64,000 nucleotides of DNA, from NCBI RefSeq assembly GCF_000022145.1, contig NC_011891.1:4756501-4820500 (forward strand). The letters are read 5' to 3'. Shown here in pieces: positions 28,874 through 55,080 of this stretch. The notes beneath the pieces were generated by a model, which did no database searches, had not been told where the DNA came from, and saw only the letters and a list, made by a program, of their open reading frames with translations. This DNA is from Anaeromyxobacter dehalogenans 2CP-1 (GTDB lineage: Bacteria; Myxococcota; Myxococcia; Myxococcales; Anaeromyxobacteraceae). A program made the position numbers and the translations under genes. The first letter of the stretch is position 1. Each line of letters opens with the position of its first letter.

Positions 28874-29536
28874 ATGGAAGCGTGGGTGGAGAGTCCCGCT
28901 TCCTTCCTCGAGCGCTGGCACTACGGCGGCCTGTTCGCGGTGATCCTGGCCGAGGAGGCGGGCGTCCCGCTGCCGCTCCCCGGCGACCTGTTCATCGCGG
29001 CCATGGGCTTCCTCGCCCACTCGCACCGCGCCGCCTTCCTGCCCACCGCGGCGGTGGTGACCTCGGCCACGGTGCTGGGCGCCACGGTCCTGTACCTCGT
29101 CTCGCGGCACGCCGGGCGGCCGCTGCTGCTCCGGGTGGCGCGGCGCTTCGGCTACACCGAGGCGCGGGAGGCGCGTCTCGAGGGCTGGCTCACCCGGCGC
29201 GGCGCGGCGGCGGTGGTGATCGGCCGGCTCATCCCCGGGCTGCGGATCGTGATGACGGTGGTCGCGGGCGCGCTCCGCCTGCGCCAGGGCACCTTCGTCG
29301 CCGGCACGCTGGTGGCGGGCGCGCTCTGGGCGACGATCTACTTCTGGCTCGGGTGGGCGCTGGGCGCCGGCTACGAGCGGCTCGCGGGCGAGATCCGCCT
29401 CGAGGCGGTCTGGCCCTGGGCGGCGGCGGCCGGGGTCCTCGCGGCGGGCGCGGTGCTCTCCTGGCGTGCGCGCCGGCGGGCCGCGGCGGCCGCCGAGGCG
29501 TCCGTCGAGAGCCCGCCCTCCGGGACCGCCGGCTGA
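28874..29536 (+). CDS. DedA-family membrane protein
   Basis: A 220-residue integral membrane protein of the DedA/SNARE-associated family. The family motifs are visible: AVILAEEAGVPLPLPGDLFIAAMGFLA near the start, and VVIGRLIPGLRIVMTVVAGALRLRQGTFVAGTLVAGALWATIYFWLGWALG, which contains the conserved R-x-x-P-G-x-R stretch. DedA proteins are linked to phospholipid (undecaprenyl-phosphate or PE) scrambling and membrane homeostasis. The ATG at 28874 follows an 80-bp divergent spacer shared with EncFtn. The tail is Ala/Arg-rich and cytoplasmic. Confidence 0.88.
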   Translation: MEAWVESPASFLERWHYGGLFAVILAEEAGVPLPLPGDLFIAAMGFLAHSHRAAFLPTAAVVTSATVLGATVLYLVSRHAGRPLLLRVARRFGYTEAREARLEGWLTRRGAAAVVIGRLIPGLRIVMTVVAGALRLRQGTFVAGTLVAGALWATIYFWLGWALGAGYERLAGEIRLEAVWPWAAAAGVLAAGAVLSWRARRRAAAAAEASVESPPSGTAG

Positions 29537-29998: not shown

Positions 29999-30161
29999 AG
30001 AGCGCGTGAATCCATCCCCGGACCGAGCCAGGCGGTCGAGACGCGAGCAGCGCGAGGCGCGACGACCGAGCATGCCCCGAGGCATGTGAGGGAGGAGCCA
30101 CGACGCGATGCGACGCGGATCGGCCGCCGCGGCGACGGGAGGGGATGGGTTCACGTGCTCT
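29999..30161. mobile_element. 163-bp inverted-repeat element (MITE-like or long hairpin)
   Basis: Twenty-one-base ends (29999-30019 and 30141-30161) are inverted copies with two transitions; the shared blocks are CGTGAA and CCATCCCC. Inside, CATGCC-ccga-GGCATG (30071-30086) forms a hairpin, and further dyads are present. The element fills the convergent spacer and its right end touches the stop codon of the RND gene. TCA is found at both outer edges, which could be a short target duplication but also occurs by chance. Confidence 0.45.
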
Positions 30162-32683
30162 CAAGGTTGCGGCTGCGCGTCGGTGCCGCCGCGCGCCGCA
30201 GCCGCCTGCGCCGCCGCCGCCCGGGCGCGCGACCGCTCCCGCCAGCGCATCGCGGCCGGCAGCGCCAGCAGCGCCGCGGCCAGGCACGCCACCTCGCCCA
30301 GCACCGCCAGCAGCCCGAACGAGATGAGCGCCTGGTTCCGCGCGATGAGCAGCGACGAGTAGCCGATGATGGTCGTGAGCGAGCAGAGCGCCACCGCGCC
30401 GCCGGTGGTCCGGACGATGTCCGCCACCGAGCCCGCGTGGTCCACCCGCCGGCGCTGGAAGATGTTCGTCGCGTAGTCCACGCCGATGCCGAACGTGATG
30501 GGCAGCGCGATGAAGTTCAGCATGTTGAGCCGGAGCTGGAGCGCGCCGGCGAGCCCCATGAACCAGAGCACGCCCACGCCCAGCGCGGCGAGCACGCCCA
30601 GCGCGTCGCCGAGCGAGCGCACCGAGCGGCGGCCCAGCCCGAACGCGATCAGCACCAGCGCCACCACCCCGAGGAGCGACAGCACGGTGGCGCGCGGCCC
30701 GTCGCGCTCGATGGCGTCGAGCACGTCCGCGAACACCAGGGTGGAGCTGGCCATGGGCAGGTCGGCGCGGGGCATCGGCACCGAGCGCAGCTCGCGCGCG
30801 AAGCGCCGCACGTCGAGCCCGTTCCACACGTCCATCCGGCCCGAGGGGTACAGCAGCACCGGCGTGCCCACGCGCCCGTCCACCTCGGTGAGCTGGCGCC
30901 GGATCATGTCCGGCAGGTCCTTCGCGCCGAACGGGCGCAGCTCCTCGGGCGGCAGCACCTGCTCGATGGCGAGCCGCTTCTCGGGCGAGAGGAAGGAGAG
31001 GTTCTCGGGGGTGGCGAGCGCGCGCAGCTCCCGGATGAGCGGGAGCTTCGCCTCCTGGCCCTCCGGCACGAACGCGGCGATGGAGAGCACGTGGCCGAAG
31101 GTGGTGTCCGGCGTCGCGCGCATGTGCGCGTCGAGCGCGTTCGCGATGGCGCGCGCCTCGCCCTCGTCGCGGGCCAGGATGGCGGTGGGCGAGAGGTGGT
31201 CGCCGTGCAGCGCGTCCACCCGCTGGTCCCACCAGCCCGGCCCGCCGTCGGCGAGCGCCGACTGGTCGCGCAGGCGGCGGAAGTCGTGCTCGATGGGATC
31301 CCGCGACCAGCGGACCACCATCACGGCCGACGCGATCGAGAGCAGCACCGCCACCGTCACCATGCGGCGCGGCGCGCGCTCCACGATGGCCGAGATCGCG
31401 TAGGTGAAGATCGGGCGGGCCGGACGCTGCCCCTGCCGCGGGATGGGCGCGCGGCGCTCCCACGCGAGCACCAGCGCCGGGGTGACCGCGTACGCGGAGA
31501 GCCAGGAGAACGCCATGCCCAGCCCGCCGATCAGGCCGAACTGGTTGAAGCCGCGGAAGTCGGTGGAGAGCAGCGAGGCGTAGGACACCCCGGCGGCGAG
31601 CGCGGCGGTGAGCGTGGCGAGCCAGGTGTTGGCGAGCGCCGTGACCATGGCGGGCCGGGGCTCCTGCCCGCGCCGACGGTCCTCGAGGTAGCGCGCGAAC
31701 AGGATCAGCCCGACGTTGATGCCGTTGCCCACCACGATGGAGCCGAGGAAGGCGGTGTTGGAGTTGAGGTGGCCGACGAAGATCTCGGCCAGCCCGAACG
31801 TCGCGAACGTGCCGACGAGGAGGGGCGCGCCCACCGCGAAGACGGCCTTCCAGGTGCGGTTGTAGACGACCACCGAGGCCGCCACCGCGAGCAGCACCAG
31901 GATGGTGGCCCACACCAGGTCCTCGGCCAGGGCGTCGTGCTCGAGGATGTTGTTGGCCACGTACCCGCCGTAGCCCACCTCGATGCCGGCCTTCTCGGGC
32001 TCGAGCCGGCGGACGGTGTCCTTCACCACCCGCTGCAGCGCCACCACGTCGCGGTAGTCGTCCGGAGGCGCGTCGAGCCGGATCACCATGGCGAGCGCGG
32101 TCATGGTCTCGCCGGGCGCGTGACCGGGCACCTCGCCCATGACGTAGCCGCTCGGGAACTTGCCGAGCAGCCCCTTCCGCTCGCCGGCGATCCGGTCGAC
32201 CAGCCCCTCCACGTCCGGGGCCGGCCCCTCGGCCTTCCCGGCCTGCCGGGCCCGCTCCCACGCCACCCGCGCGCCGAGCGTGTCGCGCAGCGACGCCAGC
32301 TCCTCGCGCGAGAGGAACAGCAGCAGGCGCGGCTTGAAGAAGTCGCGCGCCTCGTCCACGCGGTACTCGACCCAGCGCAGCAGGCCGGGCGGCGCGTCCT
32401 TCAGCGCGTCGTCGAGGTCGTCCGCGAAGAGCTGCAGGGCGAGCGGGTCCTTCCCCGCCAGCACCACCGACAGCTCGGCGAACCCGCCGATGCGCTTCGT
32501 GAGCGCCTCGAGGTCGCGGGCGCTCCGGCTGTTGGCGGGGAGCAGCTCGGACATGTCCGGGCGCAGGTCGGCGTACAGCCGGAAGGTGCCGTACCCGCCG
32601 ACGAGCGCCACCAGGGCGGCGACGGCCAGGATGACGACGCGGCGCCGCTCGGAGAAGCGGACGAAGGCTTCGATGATGCGCAT
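30161..32683 (-). CDS. RND/MMPL-family exporter
   Basis: An 840-residue inner-membrane protein with two repeats, each of one helix, a large periplasmic loop and five helices (HpnN/MmpL layout). NGINVGLILFARYLEDRR (about residue 330) and GIGVDYATNIFQRRR (about 750) are the equivalent TM4 regions with the proton-relay acidic residues. The N-terminal loop contains LRPDMSELLPANSRSARDLEAL, common in hopanoid/lipid RND exporters. It is the last gene of the inositol-lipid operon, 48 bp after the phosphoesterase, so the lipid made by that cluster is the best guess for cargo. The tail is Ala/Arg-rich. Confidence 0.85.
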   Translation of the reverse strand: MRIIEAFVRFSERRRVVILAVAALVALVGGYGTFRLYADLRPDMSELLPANSRSARDLEALTKRIGGFAELSVVLAGKDPLALQLFADDLDDALKDAPPGLLRWVEYRVDEARDFFKPRLLLFLSREELASLRDTLGARVAWERARQAGKAEGPAPDVEGLVDRIAGERKGLLGKFPSGYVMGEVPGHAPGETMTALAMVIRLDAPPDDYRDVVALQRVVKDTVRRLEPEKAGIEVGYGGYVANNILEHDALAEDLVWATILVLLAVAASVVVYNRTWKAVFAVGAPLLVGTFATFGLAEIFVGHLNSNTAFLGSIVVGNGINVGLILFARYLEDRRRGQEPRPAMVTALANTWLATLTAALAAGVSYASLLSTDFRGFNQFGLIGGLGMAFSWLSAYAVTPALVLAWERRAPIPRQGQRPARPIFTYAISAIVERAPRRMVTVAVLLSIASAVMVVRWSRDPIEHDFRRLRDQSALADGGPGWWDQRVDALHGDHLSPTAILARDEGEARAIANALDAHMRATPDTTFGHVLSIAAFVPEGQEAKLPLIRELRALATPENLSFLSPEKRLAIEQVLPPEELRPFGAKDLPDMIRRQLTEVDGRVGTPVLLYPSGRMDVWNGLDVRRFARELRSVPMPRADLPMASSTLVFADVLDAIERDGPRATVLSLLGVVALVLIAFGLGRRSVRSLGDALGVLAALGVGVLWFMGLAGALQLRLNMLNFIALPITFGIGVDYATNIFQRRRVDHAGSVADIVRTTGGAVALCSLTTIIGYSSLLIARNQALISFGLLAVLGEVACLAAALLALPAAMRWRERSRARAAAAQAAAARGGTDAQPQP

Positions 32684-32731
32684 GGATGCCGTCTTCTACC
32701 TCATCCCGCGCCCGGGGCGCGGATCCGCAAT

Positions 32732-33427
32732 CTACCCCTTCGCCGCCGGGGCCGTTCCCGGGTCCGGCAGGTCGCCGGCGCGGAGCACGGCGAGCCGTGG
32801 GCCGCGGGGCCCGAGCTCCAGGTACTCGAGGGCCTCGCCGTGGAGCGAGCCCGCGTTGGCGTAGCGATCCCCCGGCGCGAGGTGGGCCCGGTGCACGTGC
32901 CCGAACACGCCCAGCGCGAAGCCCTCCCGCTCCACCTCGGCCAGGCACCGGCGCCGGAACGTCGCCACCATCCAGTCCTCGGCCAGCGCGCGGGCGGCCG
33001 CCTCGGCGAACCAGGCCGCGCCCCGCACCACCCCGAACCGGCCGAAGCGGCGGGAGATTCCGTCCCCGAGCCGCCCCAGCGCCGAGGCGTTCACCGGGTC
33101 GGCGGCGTGCCCGTGCGCGACCAGCACGCGGCCGGTCCCGGGCACCTCCAGCACCACCCGCTCCTCGCCCGCGCCCGGATCGTGGTTGCCGCGCGTTCGC
33201 CGCAGCCGGCCCTCGCGGCCGAGCGCCTCCAGCTCGGCGACCACCAGCGGGTGCGCCGCCTCGGCCCGTCCACCTCCGGTGAACAGGTCGTCGAACGCGT
33301 CGCCGTTCAGCACCACCGTGGCGCCGTCGGCGCGCGCGCGGGCCAGGAAGGCGCGCGCCAGCCGGCCGTGCACCGCCGGGCTGCCGGGCGCGAGGTGCCA
33401 GTCGCTGGCGATGCGCCAGGTGGTCAC
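32732..33427 (-). CDS. Calcineurin-like metallophosphoesterase (LpxH-like)
   Basis: A 231-residue soluble phosphoesterase with the full metal-binding motif set: SDWHL, NGDAFDDL, RGNHD, VAHGHAAD and FGHVHRAH. The overall plan is like UDP-2,3-diacylglucosamine hydrolase (LpxH). However, its place inside the inositol-lipid operon suggests that it may instead dephosphorylate a lipid intermediate, such as phosphatidylinositol phosphate. The GTG start at 33427 overlaps the stop of the upstream acyltransferase (GTGA). The substrate is inferred from context only. Confidence 0.8.
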   Translation of the reverse strand: MTTWRIASDWHLAPGSPAVHGRLARAFLARARADGATVVLNGDAFDDLFTGGGRAEAAHPLVVAELEALGREGRLRRTRGNHDPGAGEERVVLEVPGTGRVLVAHGHAADPVNASALGRLGDGISRRFGRFGVVRGAAWFAEAAARALAEDWMVATFRRRCLAEVEREGFALGVFGHVHRAHLAPGDRYANAGSLHGEALEYLELGPRGPRLAVLRAGDLPDPGTAPAAKG

Positions 33428-34170
33428 CGCCCCGTGCCCCGCTGCGCGATCAGCCGGTCGTAGAGCGCCTGCGTGCGCGCGCGCGCCAGCTCCTGGAGCG
33501 GCTTCACCACCGCCGGATCCCGCGCCGACTCCGGCCGCCGCTCCACCGGGATGGGCTCGCCGATCGCCATCTCCATCCGCGCGGGGAGCGGCAGCGGCGA
33601 CCAGAACGAGAGCTTGCCCCACCGCACGCCCGGGTACGCCTCCGCGCCGCCCACCACCGCCACCGGGACGATGGGCACGCCGGTGCGCACCGCCATGCGC
33701 GCGAAGCCGAGCCGCCCGTCCCAGCGCAGCCGGTAGAAGTCGCGCGAGGGCTGCGCCTCGCGCATGCCGCCCGGCGTGACGAGCAGCGACTCGCCGCGCT
33801 CCAGCACCGCCACGCAGTCCTCCTCGTCGGTCCCGATGATGCCGGCGTGCTCCTTCACCCGCGGCAGGCCGGGCAGGAAGCGCTCGATCTGCGACTCTGC
33901 CCCCACGATGCGGAGCGGGCGCCAGTCCTCCCGCCGCCCGCTCTCGTGGAACTCCTTCCAGCCGAGGAAGTAGCAGGCCAGCACCAGGTCGAGCACGAGG
34001 TACCCGGCGCCGTGCAGCGCCACGTAGACGCACGGACCCTGCGGCACCGTGCCCTCCACCGTCATGCGGTGGTAGCGCGCGAGCCGGCGCGCACCCCCGA
34101 GGATCCAGCGGTAGGCCGGGTGGCGCGGATCGAGCGGCGGCGGCGGGGCGTGCGGGGCGTGGCGGCTCAC
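33424..34170 (-). CDS. Lysophospholipid-type acyltransferase (second of two)
   Basis: A 248-residue PlsC-like acyltransferase, probably membrane-bound peripherally. VYVALHGAGYLVLDLVLACYFLGW holds the block I histidine and a later aspartate. ESLLVTPGGMREAQPSRDFYRLRWDGRLGFARMAVRTGVPIVPVAVVGG is the conserved PEG(G)/P block followed by the GxPIxPV motif, of DGAT/acyltransferase type. It uses GTG 34170, overlapping the previous stop by 4 bp. Within this operon it would acylate glycerol, inositol or sugar hydroxyls of the lipid. Confidence 0.83.
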   Translation of the reverse strand: MSRHAPHAPPPPLDPRHPAYRWILGGARRLARYHRMTVEGTVPQGPCVYVALHGAGYLVLDLVLACYFLGWKEFHESGRREDWRPLRIVGAESQIERFLPGLPRVKEHAGIIGTDEEDCVAVLERGESLLVTPGGMREAQPSRDFYRLRWDGRLGFARMAVRTGVPIVPVAVVGGAEAYPGVRWGKLSFWSPLPLPARMEMAIGEPIPVERRPESARDPAVVKPLQELARARTQALYDRLIAQRGTGR

Positions 34171-34883
34171 GGGCGGCTCCGGGTCCGGGCGGGGATCCAG
34201 CTGCGGCGGGCGCGGACGGCCTGGTCGAGCAGCGCCTGCGTGGCGGCGGCGACGCGGTCGGCGTAGGCCGCCACCCCGGCGGCGTCGCCGGGCGACGGCG
34301 GCGGCATGGGCGCGCCGAACCAGAAGTCGAGCGCCACCGGCAGCGGCACGGGAGGCAACCAGAGCGAGCCGCCCTTGCCGAGCGGGAGGCGGAGCGGGTG
34401 CTGCTGGTCGGCCCCGGCGATCGCCACCGGCACCACCGGCACGCCGGCGGCGGCGGCGATGCGCGCGTAGCCGCGGCGCCCGGCCCAGTCGAGCGCGTCC
34501 TCGTCGCCGTACAGCTCGCGCGCGCCGCCCGGGAACACGAGCAGCGACTCGCCGCCGCGGAGCGCCGCGAGCGCCGCCGCTTCGGTGGCCTCGATGCTGC
34601 CGACGTGGCGCCGGACCCAGGCGAGGCCGGGGATGCGATGCAGCGAGGTGCCGCGCTTCTCCATGGGGCGGAACGGGATCCGGTCGGCGTCCCAGAACGT
34701 GAGCAGCCCGAGCAGGAAGATCTCGAAGTAGAGCCAGGTGCGCGGGTGCTTCGCGACGTAGATGACCGGCCGATCGCGCGGGACCGCCTCGAGCCCGTGC
34801 ACGCGCGGGCGGTACCAGAGCTTCAGGCCGCGCGCGAACGGGACGAGGATCGCCTTCTGGCGCCAGGTGCGGGGGAAGGCCAT
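34167..34883 (-). CDS. Lysophospholipid-type acyltransferase (first of two)
   Basis: A 238-residue relative of the next gene in the operon and probably an old duplicate. VIYVAKHPRTWLYFEIFLLGLL carries the catalytic-type histidine, and RPMEKRGTSLHRIPGLAWVRRHVGSIEA is a conserved connector. ESLLVFPGGARELYGDEDALDWAGRRGYARIAAAAGVPVVPVAIAGADQQ gives the glycerol-phosphate-binding PGG block. A basic N-terminus (FPRTWRQKAILVPFARGLKLWYRPR) should sit on the membrane. It starts 12 bp after the glycosyltransferase stop. Two acyltransferases suggest two acylation steps or two acceptors. Confidence 0.84.
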   Translation of the reverse strand: MAFPRTWRQKAILVPFARGLKLWYRPRVHGLEAVPRDRPVIYVAKHPRTWLYFEIFLLGLLTFWDADRIPFRPMEKRGTSLHRIPGLAWVRRHVGSIEATEAAALAALRGGESLLVFPGGARELYGDEDALDWAGRRGYARIAAAAGVPVVPVAIAGADQQHPLRLPLGKGGSLWLPPVPLPVALDFWFGAPMPPPSPGDAAGVAAYADRVAAATQALLDQAVRARRSWIPARTRSRP

Positions 34884-34895
34884 CGCGCGCTCCCG

Positions 34896-36035
34896 CTAGC
34901 CCCGCGCCGCGCGCGCCACCGGCGCGAGCGGCGGGACGGCGAGCGCGGGGCTCCCGGCGCCGGCCACCTGGTAGATGTGCAGCACGCGGGCCGCCACCCG
35001 CGACCAGCACAGCGCGTCGGCGCGCGCCCGCCCGCGGGCCCAGAGGCGCGCCCGCAGCCCGGGGTCGTGAGCGGCCCGCGACAGCGCCGTGGCGAGCGCG
35101 TCCGGATCGCCGGCCCGCACCAGCAGCGCCGCGCCGCGGGCCGCCTCGGCGTACCCGGGGATGTCGCTCGCCACCACCGGGCAGCCCGCCGCCATGGCCT
35201 CGGCGAGCACCATCCCGAAGCTCTCGCCGCCCAGCGACGGCGCGCAGAACACGTCGCCGTCGCGGTAGGCGCGGGCGAGCGCGTCGTCGCTCACCCGGCC
35301 CAGGAAGCGCACCCCGGCGCGGGCGGCGCGCCCGGCGAAGCGGTCCGCCGGCCCGTCGCCCACCACCTCGATGTCCACCGCCTCGCCGCGGGCGCGCAGC
35401 CGCTCCGCCGCGTCGAGCAGCACCGCCAGGCCCTTGCGCGGCTCGCCGAAGCGCCCGACGAACAGGACCCGCGGCGGCGCGTGCGGCGGGCGCGGCGCGG
35501 CGTCGGTGTCCGCGCCGAACCGCGACCGGTCCACGCCGTTCGGGATGACCGCGATGCGGCCGCGGAAGATGGGGCGCGCGAAGCGCTTCGCCTGGCGCGA
35601 GACCGCGATGCCGAAGTCCACCCGGGAGAGGCCCGCGGAGGCGAAGCGGCGCAGCACCGACTGCAGCCAGGGCTCGCGCTCGGCGTTCGCGTGGAACGTC
35701 GCGACCACCGGCCCGCGCGCGTGGCGGAGCGCGTGGCGCCCCGGCCCGGGCACGATGGGCTCGTGCACGTGGACGACGTCGAAGTCGTGCGCGTCGAGGT
35801 AAGCGCGGGTGGCGCGCTCCGAGACGAGCAGGCCGATGCGCGCGACCGAGCCGTTCGCCGGCACGGGCAGGACGCCCCGGAGCCCGTCGCAGCCGTCCGG
35901 CACCGCGCCGCTCGCCGGGCCGAGCACCCGCGCCTCCACGCCGAGGCCACCCAGCGCGCGGGCCAGCCCGAGCGCGTGGCGGTTCACGCCGCCGTCGTGG
36001 GACAGGTCGTACGGCGTGACGATGCAGACGCGCAC
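34896..36035 (-). CDS. GT4 glycosyltransferase, PimA-like
   Basis: A 379-residue GT-B enzyme resembling PimA, the GDP-mannose:phosphatidyl-myo-inositol mannosyltransferase. Signatures: N-terminal MRVCIVTPYDLSHDGGVNRHALGLARAL (gly-rich acceptor loop), VVHVHEPIVPG, IPNGVDRSRF, RVLFVGRFGEPRKGL, VVGDGPADRF and the EX7E donor motif in GGESFGMVLAEAMAAGCPVVASDIPGY. The enzyme is cytosolic or membrane-peripheral. It starts at GTG 36035, 10 bp after the CDP-alcohol phosphotransferase gene. Adjacency to Ino1 and that transferase is the main reason to propose a phosphatidylinositol acceptor; the sugar is not determined by sequence. Confidence 0.86.
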   Translation of the reverse strand: MRVCIVTPYDLSHDGGVNRHALGLARALGGLGVEARVLGPASGAVPDGCDGLRGVLPVPANGSVARIGLLVSERATRAYLDAHDFDVVHVHEPIVPGPGRHALRHARGPVVATFHANAEREPWLQSVLRRFASAGLSRVDFGIAVSRQAKRFARPIFRGRIAVIPNGVDRSRFGADTDAAPRPPHAPPRVLFVGRFGEPRKGLAVLLDAAERLRARGEAVDIEVVGDGPADRFAGRAARAGVRFLGRVSDDALARAYRDGDVFCAPSLGGESFGMVLAEAMAAGCPVVASDIPGYAEAARGAALLVRAGDPDALATALSRAAHDPGLRARLWARGRARADALCWSRVAARVLHIYQVAGAGSPALAVPPLAPVARAARG

Positions 36036-36045
36036 GGCCGGATCC

Positions 36046-36825
36046 CTAGGGCGTGCCGGCCGGCGGCGCCCCCGGGGCGCCGTGCCGGGCCCCGCCCGCG
36101 GCCGCTCCCTCGCCGTGGCGGAGCATCTGGTGGATCACCCACAGCCGCCCGAGCGCGGTGCCGCCGGCGCCGAGCGCCACCAGCGCGCAGGTGGTCTCGA
36201 GTAGCGGCGACACGGCCGCGGCGGGCGCGAACGACGCTGCGAGCAGCGCCGCCATGAGCATCACCACCCGGTGCGGCCGCTCCAGGCCGAAGGTCGGGCA
36301 GGAGACGCCCAGGCCCTCGCCGCGGGCCCGGGTGTACGACACCATCATCGAGGCGGAGAGCGCGCCCACCGCCCACAGCATCCCGGAGCGGTCCGGGAAT
36401 GCCGCCGCGAGGCCGCCGAACATGGCCATCTCGGAGACGCGGTCGAGGTTCGAGTCGAGGAACGCGCCCGCCTTGGTCTGCGTGCCGGTGCGGCGGGCCA
36501 GCTCGCCGTCGAGCAGGTCGCACCAGGAGCCGTAGACCAGCAGCAGGAACGCCCAGCCGAAGCCCCCCATCCCGACCGCCACGCCGGCCGCCGCGGTGAG
36601 CGCGGTGCCGATGGCGGTGACGCCGTTCGCGGTGAGCCCGGCCGCGTTCGCGGCGCGCAGCAGCGGCCCGCTCACGAAGTACGCCCACCGGCCCAGGATC
36701 CCGATGATCCCGCGCCGGCCGGTGAAGCGGGCCGGCTCGGGCGGGCGCACCACCGCGTACGCCAGGGCGGTGGCCGCGCCGAGGGCCAGGTGGGCGAGGA
36801 TCGCGAGTCGCGCGCCGGTCGGCAT
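36046..36825 (-). CDS. CDP-alcohol phosphatidyltransferase (phosphatidylinositol-phosphate synthase candidate)
   Basis: A 259-residue membrane protein with about six helices. The full CDP-alcohol motif is present as CDLLDGELARR followed by GAFLDSNLDR, matching D-x2-DG-x2-AR-x8-9-G-x3-D-x3-D. The family joins CDP-diacylglycerol to an alcohol phosphate. Encoded 6 bp downstream of inositol-phosphate synthase, the likely acceptor is L-myo-inositol-1-phosphate, giving phosphatidylinositol phosphate as in actinobacteria. The N-terminal helix is longer than in minimal members and the tail is Gly/Pro/Ala-rich. Confidence 0.87.
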   Translation of the reverse strand: MPTGARLAILAHLALGAATALAYAVVRPPEPARFTGRRGIIGILGRWAYFVSGPLLRAANAAGLTANGVTAIGTALTAAAGVAVGMGGFGWAFLLLVYGSWCDLLDGELARRTGTQTKAGAFLDSNLDRVSEMAMFGGLAAAFPDRSGMLWAVGALSASMMVSYTRARGEGLGVSCPTFGLERPHRVVMLMAALLAASFAPAAAVSPLLETTCALVALGAGGTALGRLWVIHQMLRHGEGAAAGGARHGAPGAPPAGTP

Positions 36826-36831
36826 CGCCGG

Positions 36832-38139
36832 CTAGCCGACCGCGGCCTGCTTGGCGGCCTGCGCCGCCGCGTCGGCGTACTCGCGCAGCTTCGCGAACAG
36901 GTTCGTCTGCTGCTGGAAGAGGTCGTGCACCGCGCCGTTGCCGGCCGCGGTCACCGGGCTCTTGAAGAAGAAGGAGAGCCACTCCTGCGGCCCCTTCTCC
37001 CCGGCCCGCTGCGCCAGGTCGGCGAGGATCGCGAGGTCGACGGCGAGCGGCGCCGCCAGGATCGAGTCGCGGCACTGGAAGTTGACCTTGATCTGCATCG
37101 GGTAGCCGAGCCACCCGTAGAGATCGATCGCGTCCCAGCCTTCCTTGTTGTCGCCGCGCGGCGGGTAGTAGTGGATCGTGACCTTGTGGTCGATGTCCCC
37201 GTAGAGCTCGGGGTGCTGCTTCGGCGACAGGATCGAGTCGAGCACCGAGAGCTTCGAGACCTCCTTGGTCTTGAAGCTGGCGGCGTCGTCGAGGACCTCG
37301 CCGTCGCGGTTTCCGAGGATGTTCGTGGAGAACCAGCCGTCGAGCCCGAGCAGCCGCGCGTGCAGCATGGGGGCGATGGTGGTCTTCATCAGCGTCTGGC
37401 CGGTCTTGAAGTCCTTGCCGCCGGTGACGATGCCCTCGCGCTCGGCCAGCTCGCGGAGCGCCGGGGTGTCCTGCGAGAGGTTCGGCGCGCCGTTCATGAA
37501 CGGCAGCCCGGTCTTCATCGCGGCGTAGGCGTACACCATCGACGGCGCGATGGTCGGGTCGTTCCGGTCGAGCGCGGCCTCGAACGCCTCCAGCGAGGCG
37601 TGGGCCGGGCCGATCTCGGCGTAGACCTCGGTCGAGCCGGTCCACACCATGACGCCGCGGGCGCAGCGGTGCTTCTCCATGAAGCCGCGGATGTCGGCCT
37701 GCAGCGCCTCGGCCTTCTCGCGCAGCGAGCCCTTCTTGACGTTCGGGCCGTCGAGGCGGCGCACCCACTCGGTGTCGAACACCGCCGGCATGGGCTTGAT
37801 GGCCTCGAGCTCCGCCTTGAGCGGCTCGAGGTGGTCGCGGTTCAGCACCCGGGCGCGACACGCGGCCGCGTACACGTCGTCCGGAATGGGGTCCCACCCG
37901 CCGAACACGAGGTCGTCGAAGGACGCGAGCGGCAGCACATCCTTGATGAGGCGGCCGTGGTTGTGGCCGTCGTCCAGGAAGTGGCCGAGCTGGGTGAGCG
38001 ACCCCACCGGCTGCGCCAGCTTCTTGCGGACGGCGTGGACCCCGGCGATGGCGGTGGTGGCGACGGCGCCCATGCCAGGCATGAGCACCGCCAGCTTTTC
38101 CCCCTTGCGCAGGGGCTTCAGACCGGAAACGATTTTCAT
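36832..38139 (-). CDS. Myo-inositol-1-phosphate synthase
   Basis: A 435-residue Ino1-type enzyme that converts glucose-6-phosphate to 1L-myo-inositol-1-phosphate with NAD+. The N-terminal Rossmann stretch is KLAVLMPGMGAVATTAIAGV. Conserved blocks include VMVWTGSTEVYAE, SMVYAYAAMKTGLPFMNGAPNLSQDTPALRELAEREGIVTGGKDFKTGQTLMKTTIAPML and NILGNRDGEVLDDAASFKTKEVSK, the last two carrying the catalytic lysines. GAGGTG before ATG 38139 sets the start. It is the first gene of a seven-gene operon that continues with phospholipid head-group, glycosyl and acyl transfer. Confidence 0.93.
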   Translation of the reverse strand: MKIVSGLKPLRKGEKLAVLMPGMGAVATTAIAGVHAVRKKLAQPVGSLTQLGHFLDDGHNHGRLIKDVLPLASFDDLVFGGWDPIPDDVYAAACRARVLNRDHLEPLKAELEAIKPMPAVFDTEWVRRLDGPNVKKGSLREKAEALQADIRGFMEKHRCARGVMVWTGSTEVYAEIGPAHASLEAFEAALDRNDPTIAPSMVYAYAAMKTGLPFMNGAPNLSQDTPALRELAEREGIVTGGKDFKTGQTLMKTTIAPMLHARLLGLDGWFSTNILGNRDGEVLDDAASFKTKEVSKLSVLDSILSPKQHPELYGDIDHKVTIHYYPPRGDNKEGWDAIDLYGWLGYPMQIKVNFQCRDSILAAPLAVDLAILADLAQRAGEKGPQEWLSFFFKSPVTAAGNGAVHDLFQQQTNLFAKLREYADAAAQAAKQAAVG

Positions 38140-50225: not shown

Positions 50226-51710
50226 TCAGTCCACGTCCTCCGGCACGCGCCGCCGGATCACCTCGCGCACCGCGCCGTCGGCGCCGCGCACCGTGACCAC
50301 CAGCGGCAGCTCGCCGGGCAGCGCGTGCGACGCGCACGCGTTGCAGGGGTCGTACGCCCGGAACGCCATCTCCAGGCGGTTCAAGAGCGCCGCGTCCACC
50401 TTCCCGCCGCGGATGAGCCCCTTCGCCGCCTTCCGCACCGAGACCTGCACCGGCGCGGCGTTGTGCTGCGAGGCGACCACCAGGTTCGCGGCGGTGAGGA
50501 TCCCGTCGGCGTCGGCGGCGTAGTGGTGGAAGAGCGTGCCCCGCGGCGCCTCCACCGCGCCCACGCCCTCGCGCGGCCCGGGCAGCGGCGCCGGCACCTC
50601 GCGCACGTGCGGATCGCCGAGGCCCGGATCCTCCGCGAGCTGCTGCGCGGTCTCCGCCGCCTGGAGCGCCTCGACCAGCCGCGCCCAGTGGAACGCGAGC
50701 GTCTGGTGCGCCGGCCAGCCCAGCGCCTCGAACAGCCGCTGCCGCTCCGCCTCGGCGCGCGGCGTGGCCATGGCGCGGGCCACGTTGAGCCGCGCCAGCG
50801 GGCCCACGCGGTACAGGCCGGTGTCGTCGCCCTCGGTGAAGCCGGTCCAGCCCTTCGACTTCAGATACGTGAGCTTCGCGTAGGTCCAGGGCTCGACCCG
50901 CTCGGCCAGGTGGTCGAGCCAGTCGCGCGGCGCGAACGTCGCCAGCTCGCGCCCGGCGGGGTCGATCACCCGCAGCCGCCCGTCGAGGAACGCGAGCCGG
51001 CCGTCCGCGTCCACCATGCCCATCGAGTGGCAGCGCACCCGGTACGCGTCGCTGGCGAGCGCCTCCGAGTACTCCGGGTGGTCGAGCACCGCCGCGCGGA
51101 ACGAGGCGAGCGTGTCCTCGGCGAAGCGCACCAGCCCGGGCGCGAGCGCGCGGGCGCGGGCCACCGTGGCGGCGTCCACCGCCTTCGAGATGCCGCCCGG
51201 CAGCGCGAACACCGGGTGCACGGTGCGCCCGGCCAGCGCCGCCATCAGCTCGCGCGCCTCCCGCCGGGCGGAGAGGATGCGCTTGCCGAGATCCGCGCCC
51301 ACCTTCGCGAGCACGCCCAGGATGTTGCGCATGGGCGCGGGCGCGTCCGAGCCGGCGTAGAAGTCCGGGCCGCCCATGTACCAGTAGTGGAGGAGGTGAT
51401 CCTCGAAGATGAAGAGCTGGTAGTAGAGCGCGCGGGCGAGCCGGGCCGCCGGCGGCGGCTCGACGGCGTAGAGCGCGTCGAGCGCCTGCACCGCCGCGAG
51501 GTGGTGCGCCGCCGGGCAGACGCCGCACACGTGCGCGGTGAGCTGCGGCATCTCCTCGGCCGGGCGGCCCACGCAGAAGCGCTCGAAGCCGCGCAGCTCC
51601 GGCACCTGCAGGAGCGCGCTCTCCACGTCGCCGGCGTCATCGAGCAGGATCTCGATCTTCCCGTGCCCCTCGAGCCGGGTGATGGGGTCGATGGTGATCC
51701 GCCGCGTCAC
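50226..51710 (-). CDS. [NiFe]-hydrogenase large subunit (MvhA/group 3-like)
   Basis: A 494-residue catalytic subunit. It opens RITIDPITRLEGHGKIEILLDD. The two nickel-binding motifs are complete: HVCGVCPAAHH near residue 65 and DPCNACASH near the C-terminus. The overall form is that of the soluble group 3 enzymes (MvhA/F420-non-reducing type). With the fused MvhD-MvhG subunit it would oxidise or evolve H2 and pass electrons to HdrA. GTG 51710 overlaps the previous stop by 4 bp. The enzyme should be cytoplasmic because no Tat signal is present on the small subunit. Confidence 0.92.
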   Translation of the reverse strand: MTRRITIDPITRLEGHGKIEILLDDAGDVESALLQVPELRGFERFCVGRPAEEMPQLTAHVCGVCPAAHHLAAVQALDALYAVEPPPAARLARALYYQLFIFEDHLLHYWYMGGPDFYAGSDAPAPMRNILGVLAKVGADLGKRILSARREARELMAALAGRTVHPVFALPGGISKAVDAATVARARALAPGLVRFAEDTLASFRAAVLDHPEYSEALASDAYRVRCHSMGMVDADGRLAFLDGRLRVIDPAGRELATFAPRDWLDHLAERVEPWTYAKLTYLKSKGWTGFTEGDDTGLYRVGPLARLNVARAMATPRAEAERQRLFEALGWPAHQTLAFHWARLVEALQAAETAQQLAEDPGLGDPHVREVPAPLPGPREGVGAVEAPRGTLFHHYAADADGILTAANLVVASQHNAAPVQVSVRKAAKGLIRGGKVDAALLNRLEMAFRAYDPCNACASHALPGELPLVVTVRGADGAVREVIRRRVPEDVD

Positions 51711-53176
51711 GCGCCCGCCTCGCCTTCCGGTCCGGACGGCCCGGCCGGCCGCACCCGGCGCGGCAGCAGCGCCGCGGCGTAGGAGTAGCGCCAGAACGTG
51801 CCCGCCGGATCCGGCACCGCCGCGCCGAGCGCCGCCGGGTCGGCGCCGCCCAGCAGCGAGGCGAAGCCGGAGAGCATGGCCGCGCCCGCGTCGCGCACGC
51901 CGTCGAGCGGCCCGAAGCAGCCGCGGCAAGGCATCCCCGCCTCGACGCAGCCGGGCTGGCACCCCTGGCGCGTCGCCGGGCCCATGCACACGAGCCCCTG
52001 GGCGAGGAAGCACAGGTCGGGGTCCACGGCGGAGGTGGCGAGGCGGCGGAGCGCGTCGAGCGCGATGCGCTCCGGCCGCGAGCCCTTGCGCGGGCAGCCT
52101 TCGCAGAGCGAGACGTCCGGCGCGAGCACCGCGCCGCGCGGCGGCGGGGCGTCGCCGAGCAGCGCGTCGAGCGCCGCCTGCACCACCGCCGGCGAGGGCG
52201 GGCAGCCGGGGACGGTGTAGTCCACCGGCACCACGTCCGCGAGCGTGAGCGTGCGCGGCAGGAGCACCGGCAAGGAGAGCGCCGCGCCGTCCACGCGCAC
52301 CGGCCCGCCGGGCAGCGGCGCGTCCGGGTTCGCGACGCTGGGCGGCGCGCGGTAGGCGGCCTCGAGCAGCGCCTCCGGCTCGGACAGGTTCCCGAGCCCC
52401 ACCACGCCGCCCAGGTGCGCGCAGGCGCCGAACGCCACCAGCGTGCGCGCCTTGCGGCGCAGCAGGCGGGCCCAGTCCTCCTGCTCGTCGAGGCGCACCG
52501 CGCCGTTCACGAACGCGAGGTCGATCCCGCCGTCGGGCAGCGCCTCCACGTCGGCGCGCTTGTGGTCGGTCGCGACCGGCCAGAGCACCACCTCGACGCG
52601 CTCCAGCAGGCCGGCGAAGCCGTCGCCCAGGTCCACCACCGCCTCCTCGCAGCCGCCGCAGGAGGCGTTCCAGTAGAACGCGACGCGCGGCTTCCCGCCG
52701 GCGCGCGGGGAGAGCGGCGCCGGCGCGGGATCGGCGCCGGCGAGCGCGGCGCCGGCCCCGTCGAGCGCGCGCCGCGCGTAGTCGAGCGGCCCGAGCGCCC
52801 GGAGCGCCGCGGTCATCTCGCGCACCTCGCCGGCGAGCCGCTCCGCCTCGTTCGCGCCCGCCCACGTCATCCGGAAGCGCGCCGGCTCGATGCCCGCCTG
52901 CTCGAGCGCGCCCGCCAGCACCGCGCCGCGGGCCGCGGCCCGCAGGTTGCCGTCGAGGTAGTGGCAGTCGCCCGGGTGGCAGCCGGCCACCAGCACGCCG
53001 TCGGCGCCCTCGCGAAAGGCCTGGAGCACGAACGCCGGCTCCACCCGCCCGGTGCACATGACGCGCACCGTGAGCAGGCTCTGCGGCATCTCCAGGCGTT
53101 GCTGCCCGGCGCGGTCCGCGGCGGCGTACGCGCACCCGTTGCAGAGGAACGCCACGATGCGCGGCTCGTGGGCCAC
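51707..53176 (-). CDS. Fused MvhD-MvhG (electron-transfer plus small hydrogenase subunit)
   Basis: A 489-residue fusion. Residues 1-150 are MvhD/FlpD-like: IVAFLCNGCAYAAADRAG, VRVMCTGRVEPAFVLQAFREGADGVLVAGCHPGDCHYLDGN. Residues 180-489 are the small subunit MvhG. KPRVAFYWNASCGGCEEAVVD, GACAHLGGVVGLGN and YTVPGCPPSPAVVQ give the proximal cluster, and CEGCPRKGSRPE with CFLAQGLVCMGPATRQGCQPGCVEAGMPCRGCFGP gives the medial and distal clusters. In methanogens these are separate proteins. GTG 53176 has GGAGG 7 nt upstream and is favoured over GTG 53185, which overlaps the HdrA stop. Confidence 0.87.
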   Translation of the reverse strand: MAHEPRIVAFLCNGCAYAAADRAGQQRLEMPQSLLTVRVMCTGRVEPAFVLQAFREGADGVLVAGCHPGDCHYLDGNLRAAARGAVLAGALEQAGIEPARFRMTWAGANEAERLAGEVREMTAALRALGPLDYARRALDGAGAALAGADPAPAPLSPRAGGKPRVAFYWNASCGGCEEAVVDLGDGFAGLLERVEVVLWPVATDHKRADVEALPDGGIDLAFVNGAVRLDEQEDWARLLRRKARTLVAFGACAHLGGVVGLGNLSEPEALLEAAYRAPPSVANPDAPLPGGPVRVDGAALSLPVLLPRTLTLADVVPVDYTVPGCPPSPAVVQAALDALLGDAPPPRGAVLAPDVSLCEGCPRKGSRPERIALDALRRLATSAVDPDLCFLAQGLVCMGPATRQGCQPGCVEAGMPCRGCFGPLDGVRDAGAAMLSGFASLLGGADPAALGAAVPDPAGTFWRYSYAAALLPRRVRPAGPSGPEGEAGA

Positions 53177-53181
53177 CCGGC

Positions 53182-55080
53182 TCACCTCCCCGCCAGCAGC
53201 GCGGAGATCTCCGCGGCGATCTGGGCGCGGGTGAAGTGGCGGGCGCTGGCCGCGCCGGTCGGGCAGGCCGCGGCGCACGTGCCGCAGCCGCGGCAGTCCA
53301 CCGCCAGCACCGTGGCCTTTCCGTCCGCGCCGTCGATCACCATCGCGCCGAACGGGCAGGCGGCGACGCACATCCCGCAGCCGCCGCACAGCGCCGCGTC
53401 CACCTCGGCGGCGAGCGGCTCGAGCGCGCGCCGCTCCCCCGGCCGCAGCGTGGCGAGCACCTGGCCGGCCGCGGCGGCGCCGTCGCGGATGGCGTCGCGG
53501 ATGCTCCGCGGGCCGGCGGCCGCGCCGGCCACGTACACGCCGGCGGTGCGGGTGGCGGTGGGCTCGAACGGGCTCGCGCCGCCGTCGGCGAGGAAGCCGC
53601 GGCGGTCGGGCGCGAGGCGCAGCAGGGCGGCGAGCGAGGCGGCGCCGCCCGCGCCGCGCGAGGGCGCGTGGATCGCCACCAGGTCGGCCCGCCGGCGCGT
53701 GGCGCCGCCGCCGGGCTCGGCCAGCCGGACCTCGAGCGCGCCGTCCGCCGCGGCGACGCCGCCTTCGACGAGCGCGCCCGGGAGCAGCTCGACCCCCTCG
53801 CGCCGGAGCGCGGCCGCGAGGCCGACGAGCTGCGGCGCGCGATCGAGGCCGCCCGCGACGGCCACCCGCGCCGAGGGCAGCCGGGCGCGGACCCGCTGCG
53901 CGAGCTTCAGCACCTCGCGCAGCGCCAGCTCCCCGTCCGCCTCCGCCGCGCTGGTGGCGAGCAGCACCGCCTCCGGCGTCCGCCCACCCGCGCCGCGCAG
54001 CGCGCCGCCGGTGGGGCCGTCCGGGTGGAGCATCCGCTCGAGCTGCCAGGAGGACACGAGCCCCTCCGGCCCCTCCACCGCGCCGGGCTCGAGGCCGGTC
54101 GCGATCACGATCGCGCCCACCTCCACCTCGCGCGAGCGCGGGGCGTCGTCGAGGCGCACCGCGCCGAACGGGCAGGCGCCGGCGCAGGCGGCGCAGCCGG
54201 GCGGGCAGGCGGCGCGGTCCACCACCGCCGCGTGCGGCAGGCACCCTGCGTACGGCAGGTGGATGGCCTTGCGGGCCGGCTCGCCGCCGGACGGATCCGC
54301 GACCTCGACCGGGCAGGCGGCGCCGCACACCTCGGCGCAGCCCAGGCACGCGGCCGGGTCCACGTGGCGCGGCGCGACGACCAGCTCCACCGTGAACCGG
54401 CCGGCCGAGCCGCGCACGCGCCGGACCTCGGCGCCGGTGAGCACCTCGATGCGGTCCGAGTGCAGGACGCGGTCGAGCGCCGGCTCCATGAAGCAGCTCG
54501 CGCAGGCGAGCTCCGGGAACACCTCGTCGAGCCGGTTCGCGAGCCCGCCGAGCGCGTGCGCGCGCTCCACCAGCACGACCTTCCGGTCCTTCTGCGCGAG
54601 CGCCAGCGCCGCGGAGATCCCGGCCGCGCCGCCGCCCACCACCAGCGCGTCGGCGCTCACCTCGACGTCGCCCTCCGGCAGCGGGCGCTGCAGCGCCACC
54701 CGCGCCAGGCCCGCGGCCACCAGGCGCCGGGCGCGCGCGGTCACGTCCGCCGGCGCGCCGCCCAGCCACTCGGCCTGCTCGCGCAGGTTCACCATGTGGA
54801 GCTGCCAGGGCGAGCGCCCCGCGCCGGCGAGGACGCCGCGGAAGGTGTGCTCGTGCTCGCGGGGCGAGCAGGCCCCCAGCACCACGCGCTCGATCCCGCC
54901 CGCGCGGATCCGCTCGGCGAGCCACGCCTGGCCCTCCGGCGAGCAGAGCACGTCGTGGACGGCCACGTCGGCGGCGGCGGGGAACGCGCCGGGCGCGGAG
55001 AGATCCGGCAGCCGCACCGCGCGCCCGAGGTTCGGCCCGCAGCGGCAGAAGTAGAGGCCGGTCCGGCTCGGCGACGCCAT
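53182..55080 (-). CDS. hdrA: HdrA-like flavin/iron-sulfur subunit
   Basis: A 632-residue HdrA. The N-terminal cysteine pair is in LYFCRCGPNLGR. The FAD-binding Rossmann turn is ALVVGGGAAGISAALALAQKDRKVVLVER. Two inserted ferredoxin-type clusters are seen as CLGCAEVCGAACPVEV and CPPGCAACAGACPFGAV, and the C-terminal pair as CGGCGMCVAACPFGAM and CRGCGTCAAACPTGA. In methanogens HdrA bifurcates electrons from MvhADG between HdrBC and ferredoxin. Here no hdrB or hdrC lies in the window, so the acceptor is unknown. It follows tusA by 41 bp and precedes the fused hydrogenase subunit. Confidence 0.9.
   Translation of the reverse strand: MASPSRTGLYFCRCGPNLGRAVRLPDLSAPGAFPAAADVAVHDVLCSPEGQAWLAERIRAGGIERVVLGACSPREHEHTFRGVLAGAGRSPWQLHMVNLREQAEWLGGAPADVTARARRLVAAGLARVALQRPLPEGDVEVSADALVVGGGAAGISAALALAQKDRKVVLVERAHALGGLANRLDEVFPELACASCFMEPALDRVLHSDRIEVLTGAEVRRVRGSAGRFTVELVVAPRHVDPAACLGCAEVCGAACPVEVADPSGGEPARKAIHLPYAGCLPHAAVVDRAACPPGCAACAGACPFGAVRLDDAPRSREVEVGAIVIATGLEPGAVEGPEGLVSSWQLERMLHPDGPTGGALRGAGGRTPEAVLLATSAAEADGELALREVLKLAQRVRARLPSARVAVAGGLDRAPQLVGLAAALRREGVELLPGALVEGGVAAADGALEVRLAEPGGGATRRRADLVAIHAPSRGAGGAASLAALLRLAPDRRGFLADGGASPFEPTATRTAGVYVAGAAAGPRSIRDAIRDGAAAAGQVLATLRPGERRALEPLAAEVDAALCGGCGMCVAACPFGAMVIDGADGKATVLAVDCRGCGTCAAACPTGAASARHFTRAQIAAEISALLAGR

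Follow-up and report, generated by a model that had tools for sequence, protein, structure and literature searches.

In a 64,000-nucleotide stretch of the genome of the soil bacterium Anaeromyxobacter dehalogenans 2CP-1 (contig NC_011891.1, positions 4,756,501 to 4,820,500; hereinafter the window), seven co-directional open reading frames (ORFs) on the minus strand, running from 38139 to 30161, constitute an operon that we read as a probable system for making and moving a glycosylated, acylated phosphatidylinositol (PI) (Table 1). Successive genes are separated, in operon order, by 6, 10, 12, -4, -4, and 48 bp, so that the ORF coordinates bear out an earlier note on this DNA, which had described seven co-directional genes with gaps of 48 bp or less and two 4-bp overlaps. 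The gene families that this note had given for all seven members were likewise recovered in Pfam searches, where every assignment exceeded its cut-off, and a coding-potential caller independently kept the same seven frames, albeit with shorter starts for Ino1 and the second acyltransferase. Its list of seven genes stands, but it overlooked an adjoining gene that codes for a DedA-family membrane protein.

Table 1. Genes of the operon, in operon order, and the adjoining DedA-family gene (positions are those of the window).
Gene product	Position	Strand	Length and start	Domain evidence and remarks
Ino1, myo-inositol-1-phosphate synthase	36832-38139	-	435 aa, ATG start	PF07994 287 bits, PF01658 113 bits; first operon gene
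CDP-alcohol phosphotransferase, predicted phosphatidylinositol-phosphate (PIP) synthase	36046-36825	-	259 aa	PF01066
PimA-like GT4 glycosyltransferase	34896-36035	-	379 aa, GTG start	Pfam GT4/GT1 families
Acyltransferase AT1	34167-34883	-	238 aa	PF01553 40 bits
Acyltransferase AT2	33424-34170	-	248 aa, GTG start	PF01553 29.5 bits; PF03982 (DAGAT) weakly, 26 bits
LpxH-like metallophosphoesterase (MPE)	32732-33427	-	231 aa, GTG start	PF00149
RND/MMPL transporter, HpnN type	30161-32683	-	840 aa	PF03176 (MMPL) 79.5 bits
DedA-family membrane protein (VTT domain)	28886-29536	+		PF09335 68 bits; convergent with operon

This gene arrangement is not due to chance, since its order recurs in other Anaeromyxobacter genomes (about 55-99% identity) and, as a four-gene core plus the DedA gene with about 50% identity, in four genomes of Gemmatimonadota (mid-GC genomes were surveyed by tblastn). 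The full seven-gene operon is found in five sampled Anaeromyxobacter genomes (G000, i.e., the present one, G081, G070, where it is spread over two contigs, G171, and G104), and a database scan revealed a near relative, Anaeromyxobacter sp. PSR-1, with 95-98% identical genes. Three other genomes (G064, G067, and G103) keep the same order minus the PIP synthase gene, leaving six genes, and retain a paralogous PIP synthase. Another (G187) has Ino1, the PIP synthase, and the RND gene, inside which its contig ends, and is devoid of the GT4-AT1-AT2-MPE block; a further two (G164 and G167) show operon fragments at contig ends. The four Gemmatimonadota preserve the arrangement GT4-AT1-AT2-MPE-DedA with identities of about 46-58%, and no flanking gene is common to the three modules compared. 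Because the operon variants and the Gemmatimonadota modules separate these genes from each other, three parts can be told apart in the system: one for the inositol phospholipid, a portable set of five decoration genes, and the transporter. The earlier note had proposed gene order as a check and had held that scattering of the genes in related genomes would speak against its pathway; within the genus they are not scattered. At other loci in Gemmatimonadota, we observed PIP-synthase-like genes (e.g., L227, L277, L279, and L280), with Ino1 adjacent in four of the six loci examined; inositol lipids may be general in this phylum.

The presence of Ino1 in the operon, as claimed in the note, is upheld by both of its Pfam domains. 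The second gene product contains the complete CDP-alcohol motif D-x2-D-G-x2-A-R-x8-G-x3-D-x3-D, and an alignment showed that it retains the equivalents of MtPgsA1 R94, S132, R137, R152, R155, and R195, with R replacing K135. R94, R152, R155, and R195 are also present in its orthologs, in a second copy encoded in the genome, and in every aligned relative found near Ino1, GtrA, or PimA, whereas the genome's three other CDP-alcohol enzymes, which served as controls, lack R155 and R94. R155 and R195 (MtPIPS numbering; R153 and R191 in RsPIPS) are invariant across PIP synthases (PMC4634129); R94 is a further arginine of these enzymes (PMC6506517). A PDB sequence search returned PIP synthases as all five of its top matches, and among NCBIfam models good scores came from inositol-phosphate enzymes only (archaetidylinositol-phosphate synthase 114 bits, PIP synthase 98 bits, and BT1523 80 bits), all of them below the curated cut-offs, which for the PIP synthase equivalog is 170 bits. 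The homologue of the Myxococcus xanthus type that lies beside Ino1 scores just 97 bits with the same PIP synthase model, which may be tuned to other groups, and we read the operon enzyme as one that would work like a PIP synthase yet diverges from the curated model. Its identification as a true PIP synthase is strongly supported by these residues and matches. The note's assignment of this protein to an inositol lipid role is thereby sustained by the inositol-phosphate-binding residues; a grouping with enzymes for other acceptors, which it had named as a refuting outcome, was looked for, and the protein groups with PIP synthases instead. While correct about the operon copies, the note had missed a second Ino1, about 61% identical to the first (G000 C1:2679067-2680284, at 2.68 Mb), and a second PIP synthase with 37% identity and the diagnostic arginines kept (G000 C1:3359551-3360255). 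Both are orphans with relatives across the genus Anaeromyxobacter, and they probably serve basal PI synthesis.

Searches of the PDB with the GT4 enzyme recovered PimA at 221 bits (E 1.7e-64), followed by the next solved structure at 64 bits, with PimB' and MshA at about 49 bits. Reciprocally, an actinobacterial PimA query found the operon GT4 first in the genome (201 bits), ahead of its paralogs at 4.08 Mb (149 bits) and 1.72 Mb (133 bits). The operon and Gemmatimonadota GT4s retain Y9, NGSVAR68, H118, R196, K202, and E274, where Y9, R68, H118, R196, K202, and E274 are what we take to be the active-site residues of PimA; in the two paralogs (L244 and L245, respectively), K202 is replaced by N and E274 by A. 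A PimA-like GT4 paralog in Gemmatimonadota (L248) shows the same two substitutions, and such paralogs thus occur in both phyla. Used as database queries, the operon GT4s retrieved 80 loci, mostly from Actinobacteria, many of which have a PIP synthase about 1-2 kb upstream, the distance that, judged by spacing alone, is expected of the PIPS-PatA-PimA locus. In a quick tree, the phylogenetic check against PimA that the note had called for, the operon GT4s and the Gemmatimonadota GT4 formed one fully supported clade within a broad PimA-like group, adjoining a small actinobacterial clade with a PIPS-linked member, although the deep nodes are weakly supported; the outcome that the note had named as refuting, a grouping of the GT4 with enzymes for other acceptors, was not seen in this tree. 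Score, reciprocal search, and active-site residues together strongly support the note's view that this enzyme is specifically PimA-like and not a generic GT4.

AT1 and AT2 are paralogs of about 36% identity and, as the note had it, both PlsC-like (PF01553 in each); its equation of this step with PatA does not hold. We take the family of PatA to be the PatA/HtrB type (Lip_A_acyltrans, PF03279) with an H-x4-D block. AT1 and AT2 instead match PF01553/PF03982, and our alignments showed the HX4D motif to be missing from both, so that we rejected them as PatA equivalents. AT1 has an invariant K-H-P block followed by L-Y-x-E, as well as PGGxREL, and AT2 has HGAGYLxxD and PGGxRE; an acidic residue stands eight positions after the invariant histidine in the two proteins, and PGGxRE is invariant. 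A PDB sequence search with AT1 yielded weak matches only. PatA is described as departing in its mechanism from the canonical HX4D and as similar to HtrB/MsbB in this respect (PMC4792965), so that AT1 and AT2 represent a different solution; gene linkage suggests the lipid head group as their putative acyl acceptor.

For the metallophosphoesterase, the note's family assignment (PF00149) can be refined to an LpxH-like protein by its predicted fold. Structure searches with an AlphaFold model (pLDDT 85, built with nine sequences) returned LpxH as all 12 best PDB folds, with TM scores of 0.59-0.66 (query length) and 17-19% identity, a PDB sequence search giving weak matches only; in the alignment the metal-site motifs SDWH, NGD, GNHD, HG, and GHxH are all invariant. 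LpxH itself works at the membrane on a lipid, so that a phosphorylated lipid such as PIP would be a plausible substrate for MPE, which the model makes a candidate PIP phosphatase. The mycobacterial PIP-to-PI phosphatase was unidentified as of PMC6506517 and PMC9246714, and the Bacteroides one is BT_1525.

The note's RND/MMPL exporter is indeed a member of the MMPL superfamily, but its likeness to MmpL was rejected, as the protein falls on the HpnN/BstA side. It scores 215 bits with the NCBIfam HpnN model, below that model's cut-off; the HpnN and BstA models far outscore the actII model, and HpnN chains are its best PDB matches, far above MmpL4. At the search threshold used, the genome yielded no other match of this type. 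Its relatives in sister genera (38-42% identity) adjoin genes for PIP synthase, GtrA, an aminotransferase, a Gfo/Idh/MocA dehydrogenase, and serine palmitoyltransferase, and these neighborhoods lend independent support to an inositol-lipid cargo. The DedA protein (56 bits with the NCBIfam UptA model, below cut-off) is encoded next to the operon in the related Anaeromyxobacteraceae loci that extend that far, and directly after MPE in all four Gemmatimonadota modules; it is a probable part of the system, for which gene linkage and family knowledge suggest a role in lipid flipping.

On this basis, we hold, with a probability of roughly 0.68, that the operon and the DedA gene jointly serve to synthesize and transport a glycosylated, acylated PI. 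Ino1 would convert glucose-6-phosphate to inositol phosphate, which the CDP-alcohol enzyme would couple with CDP-diacylglycerol to give PIP; residue-level and genomic evidence speaks for these two putative steps and for the acceptor class of the subsequent glycosyl transfer. The LpxH-like phosphoesterase would strip the extra phosphate to leave PI, as its modeled structure suggests, and the PimA-like GT4 would then add one hexose, for which mannose is a first guess. Gene linkage further suggests that AT1 and AT2 acylate the head group once or twice and, in conjunction with family knowledge, that DedA aids crossing of the inner membrane and that the lipid is carried toward the outer membrane by the HpnN-type RND protein. 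The lipid is probably glycerol-based, because the genome appears to lack serine palmitoyltransferase: a 60-residue probe for this enzyme scored 97-130 bits in four sister-genus genomes and 70 bits in an M. xanthus-like genome, and found no strong match in the present genome (23-27 bits) or in the operon-bearing genomes (at most about 28 bits).

Several observations weigh against this pathway. The Anaeromyxobacter genomes without the operon PIP synthase must rely on the paralog. The first of the four module-bearing Gemmatimonadota has an Ino1 and PIP synthase pair on a separate contig, and each of the four has a PIP-synthase-like gene; however, we dropped this co-occurrence as evidence, since 284 of the 298 sampled Gemmatimonadota genomes carry such a gene and it is hence uninformative. 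AT1 and AT2 are without HX4D, and the substrate of MPE could be a compound different from PIP. In addition to the weak deep nodes of the GT4 tree, the two catalytically altered paralogs fall in the same broad group, and PimA-like status therefore does not prove PI to be the acceptor. Where actinobacterial PimA commonly has Lys256, the operon GT4 has Leu, so that its sugar donor may differ. Finally, we found no lipid data for this organism in the open-access literature.

Some of the same features are what would be expected if the product were not a PI mannoside (PIM) but a PI glycolipid with another sugar, and if AT1, AT2, and MPE acted on a different intermediate, for instance a lysolipid or a lipid bearing a sugar nucleotide. 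The substitution of Lys256, the position of the GT4 clade on a long branch beside a small actinobacterial clade, the placement of AT1 and AT2 outside the PatA family, and the resemblance of the MPE model to LpxH, whose substrate is a sugar-nucleotide lipid, are all consistent with it; we nonetheless consider it unlikely, as the PimA active-site residues are unusually complete, NGSVAR included, and most of its pathway is common with the glycosylated, acylated PI that we favor. A soluble glycosylated inositol, e.g., a compatible solute or thiol precursor made by an MshA-like use of inositol phosphate, might be read from the three genomes in which Ino1 adjoins the GT4 without a PIP synthase, given that MshA also uses inositol phosphate and is matched by the GT4 at 49 bits. 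Yet the score with PimA is 221 bits, the paralogous PIP synthase is retained in all three of these genomes, and such a product does not fit with the acyltransferase pair, the DedA protein, the lipid-type transporter, and the PIP synthase present in most genomes, which makes it very improbable. Slightly more improbable still is a sphingolipid backbone, yielding a glycosylated inositol phosphoceramide: ceramide phosphoinositol is a reported product of M. xanthus (PMC9246714), and relatives of the RND protein and PIP synthase in sister genera adjoin serine palmitoyltransferase, GNAT, and epimerase genes, but the serine palmitoyltransferase probe that is strong in those genera is weak in this genome and the other operon carriers, and the operon is without a PAP2/AUR1-like gene.

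Returning to the glycosylated, acylated PI, we tentatively advance a wider proposal, with the odds somewhat against it, that the five-gene module (GT4, AT1, AT2, MPE, and DedA) might be a portable, undescribed route to such lipids in Gram-negative envelopes, present in both Anaeromyxobacter and Gemmatimonadota and, beyond the PimA step, furnished with its enzymes separately from the mycobacterial PIM pathway; MPE would then be a bacterial PIP phosphatase of a new type. We know of no glycosylated, acylated inositol phospholipid in myxobacteria, and found no glycosylated PI from myxobacteria or Gemmatimonadota in the open-access literature. The note's suggestion of an undescribed PIM-like lipid needs narrowing, in that PI in myxobacteria (PMC9131029) and ceramide phosphoinositol in M. 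xanthus (PMC9246714) have already been reported; glycosylation, acylation, and export would be new. If the pathway is correct, a PIM-like route in a Gram-negative envelope would mean that an envelope of another type can make use of glycosylated PI, MPE would offer a testable candidate for the PIP-to-PI phosphatase, and the HpnN-type RND and DedA proteins would gain a defined candidate lipid. The genus itself supplies natural variants (three genomes that lack the operon PIP synthase and one that lacks the block), so that the roles of the parts can be compared by lipidomics without genetics. Elsewhere in the window (50226-55080), translated frame starts resemble, as judged by eye, nickel-iron hydrogenase or related subunits.

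Among known systems, the BT_1522-BT_1526 cluster of Bacteroides thetaiotaomicron (PMC9246714) is like the operon in combining a clustered myo-inositol-phosphate synthase and PIP synthase with a PIP intermediate in an outer-membrane bacterium; unlike the operon, it has an AUR1-like ceramide step, a GtrA-motif protein, and the PIP phosphatase BT_1525, and a PimA, an acyltransferase pair, and an RND protein are not described in it. A locus of the M. xanthus type (L044, in the M. xanthus-like genome G048) resembles the Bacteroides cluster more closely than the Anaeromyxobacter operon does: it contains Ino1, a PAP2 protein at the position of the AUR1-like gene, and a PIP synthase-GtrA fusion, and is a candidate locus for the reported ceramide phosphoinositol. 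Four loci from other genera within the family and order (L062, L137, L139, and L141) combine PIP synthase, GtrA, a class-III aminotransferase, a Gfo/Idh/MocA dehydrogenase, and an HpnN-type RND protein, after which L062 and L137 continue with genes for serine palmitoyltransferase, GNAT, and an epimerase; these loci look like a candidate amino-inositol phosphosphingolipid cluster. The operon RND protein shares its sequence family with the HpnN/BstA-type transporters of hopanoids and sterols, as seen in its model score and PDB matches, but falls below the family cut-offs and is linked to inositol lipid genes, not hopanoid genes. In a similar vein, MPE has the predicted fold and metal motifs of LpxH (UDP-2,3-diacylglucosamine hydrolase), but is just 17-19% identical to it and travels with the GT4 and acyltransferases. 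PIMs, as far as is known characteristic of Actinobacteria, are what lipomannan and lipoarabinomannan are built on. With their pathway (Ino1, PgsA1/PIP synthase, PimA, and PatA), the operon shares an Ino1, a PIP synthase, and a PimA-type GT4 that keep the diagnostic residues, as well as the closeness of the PIP synthase and GT4 genes; it differs in having acyltransferases of another family and no PimB', in adding an LpxH-like phosphoesterase, a DedA protein, and an HpnN-type transporter, and in belonging to a host with a Gram-negative envelope.

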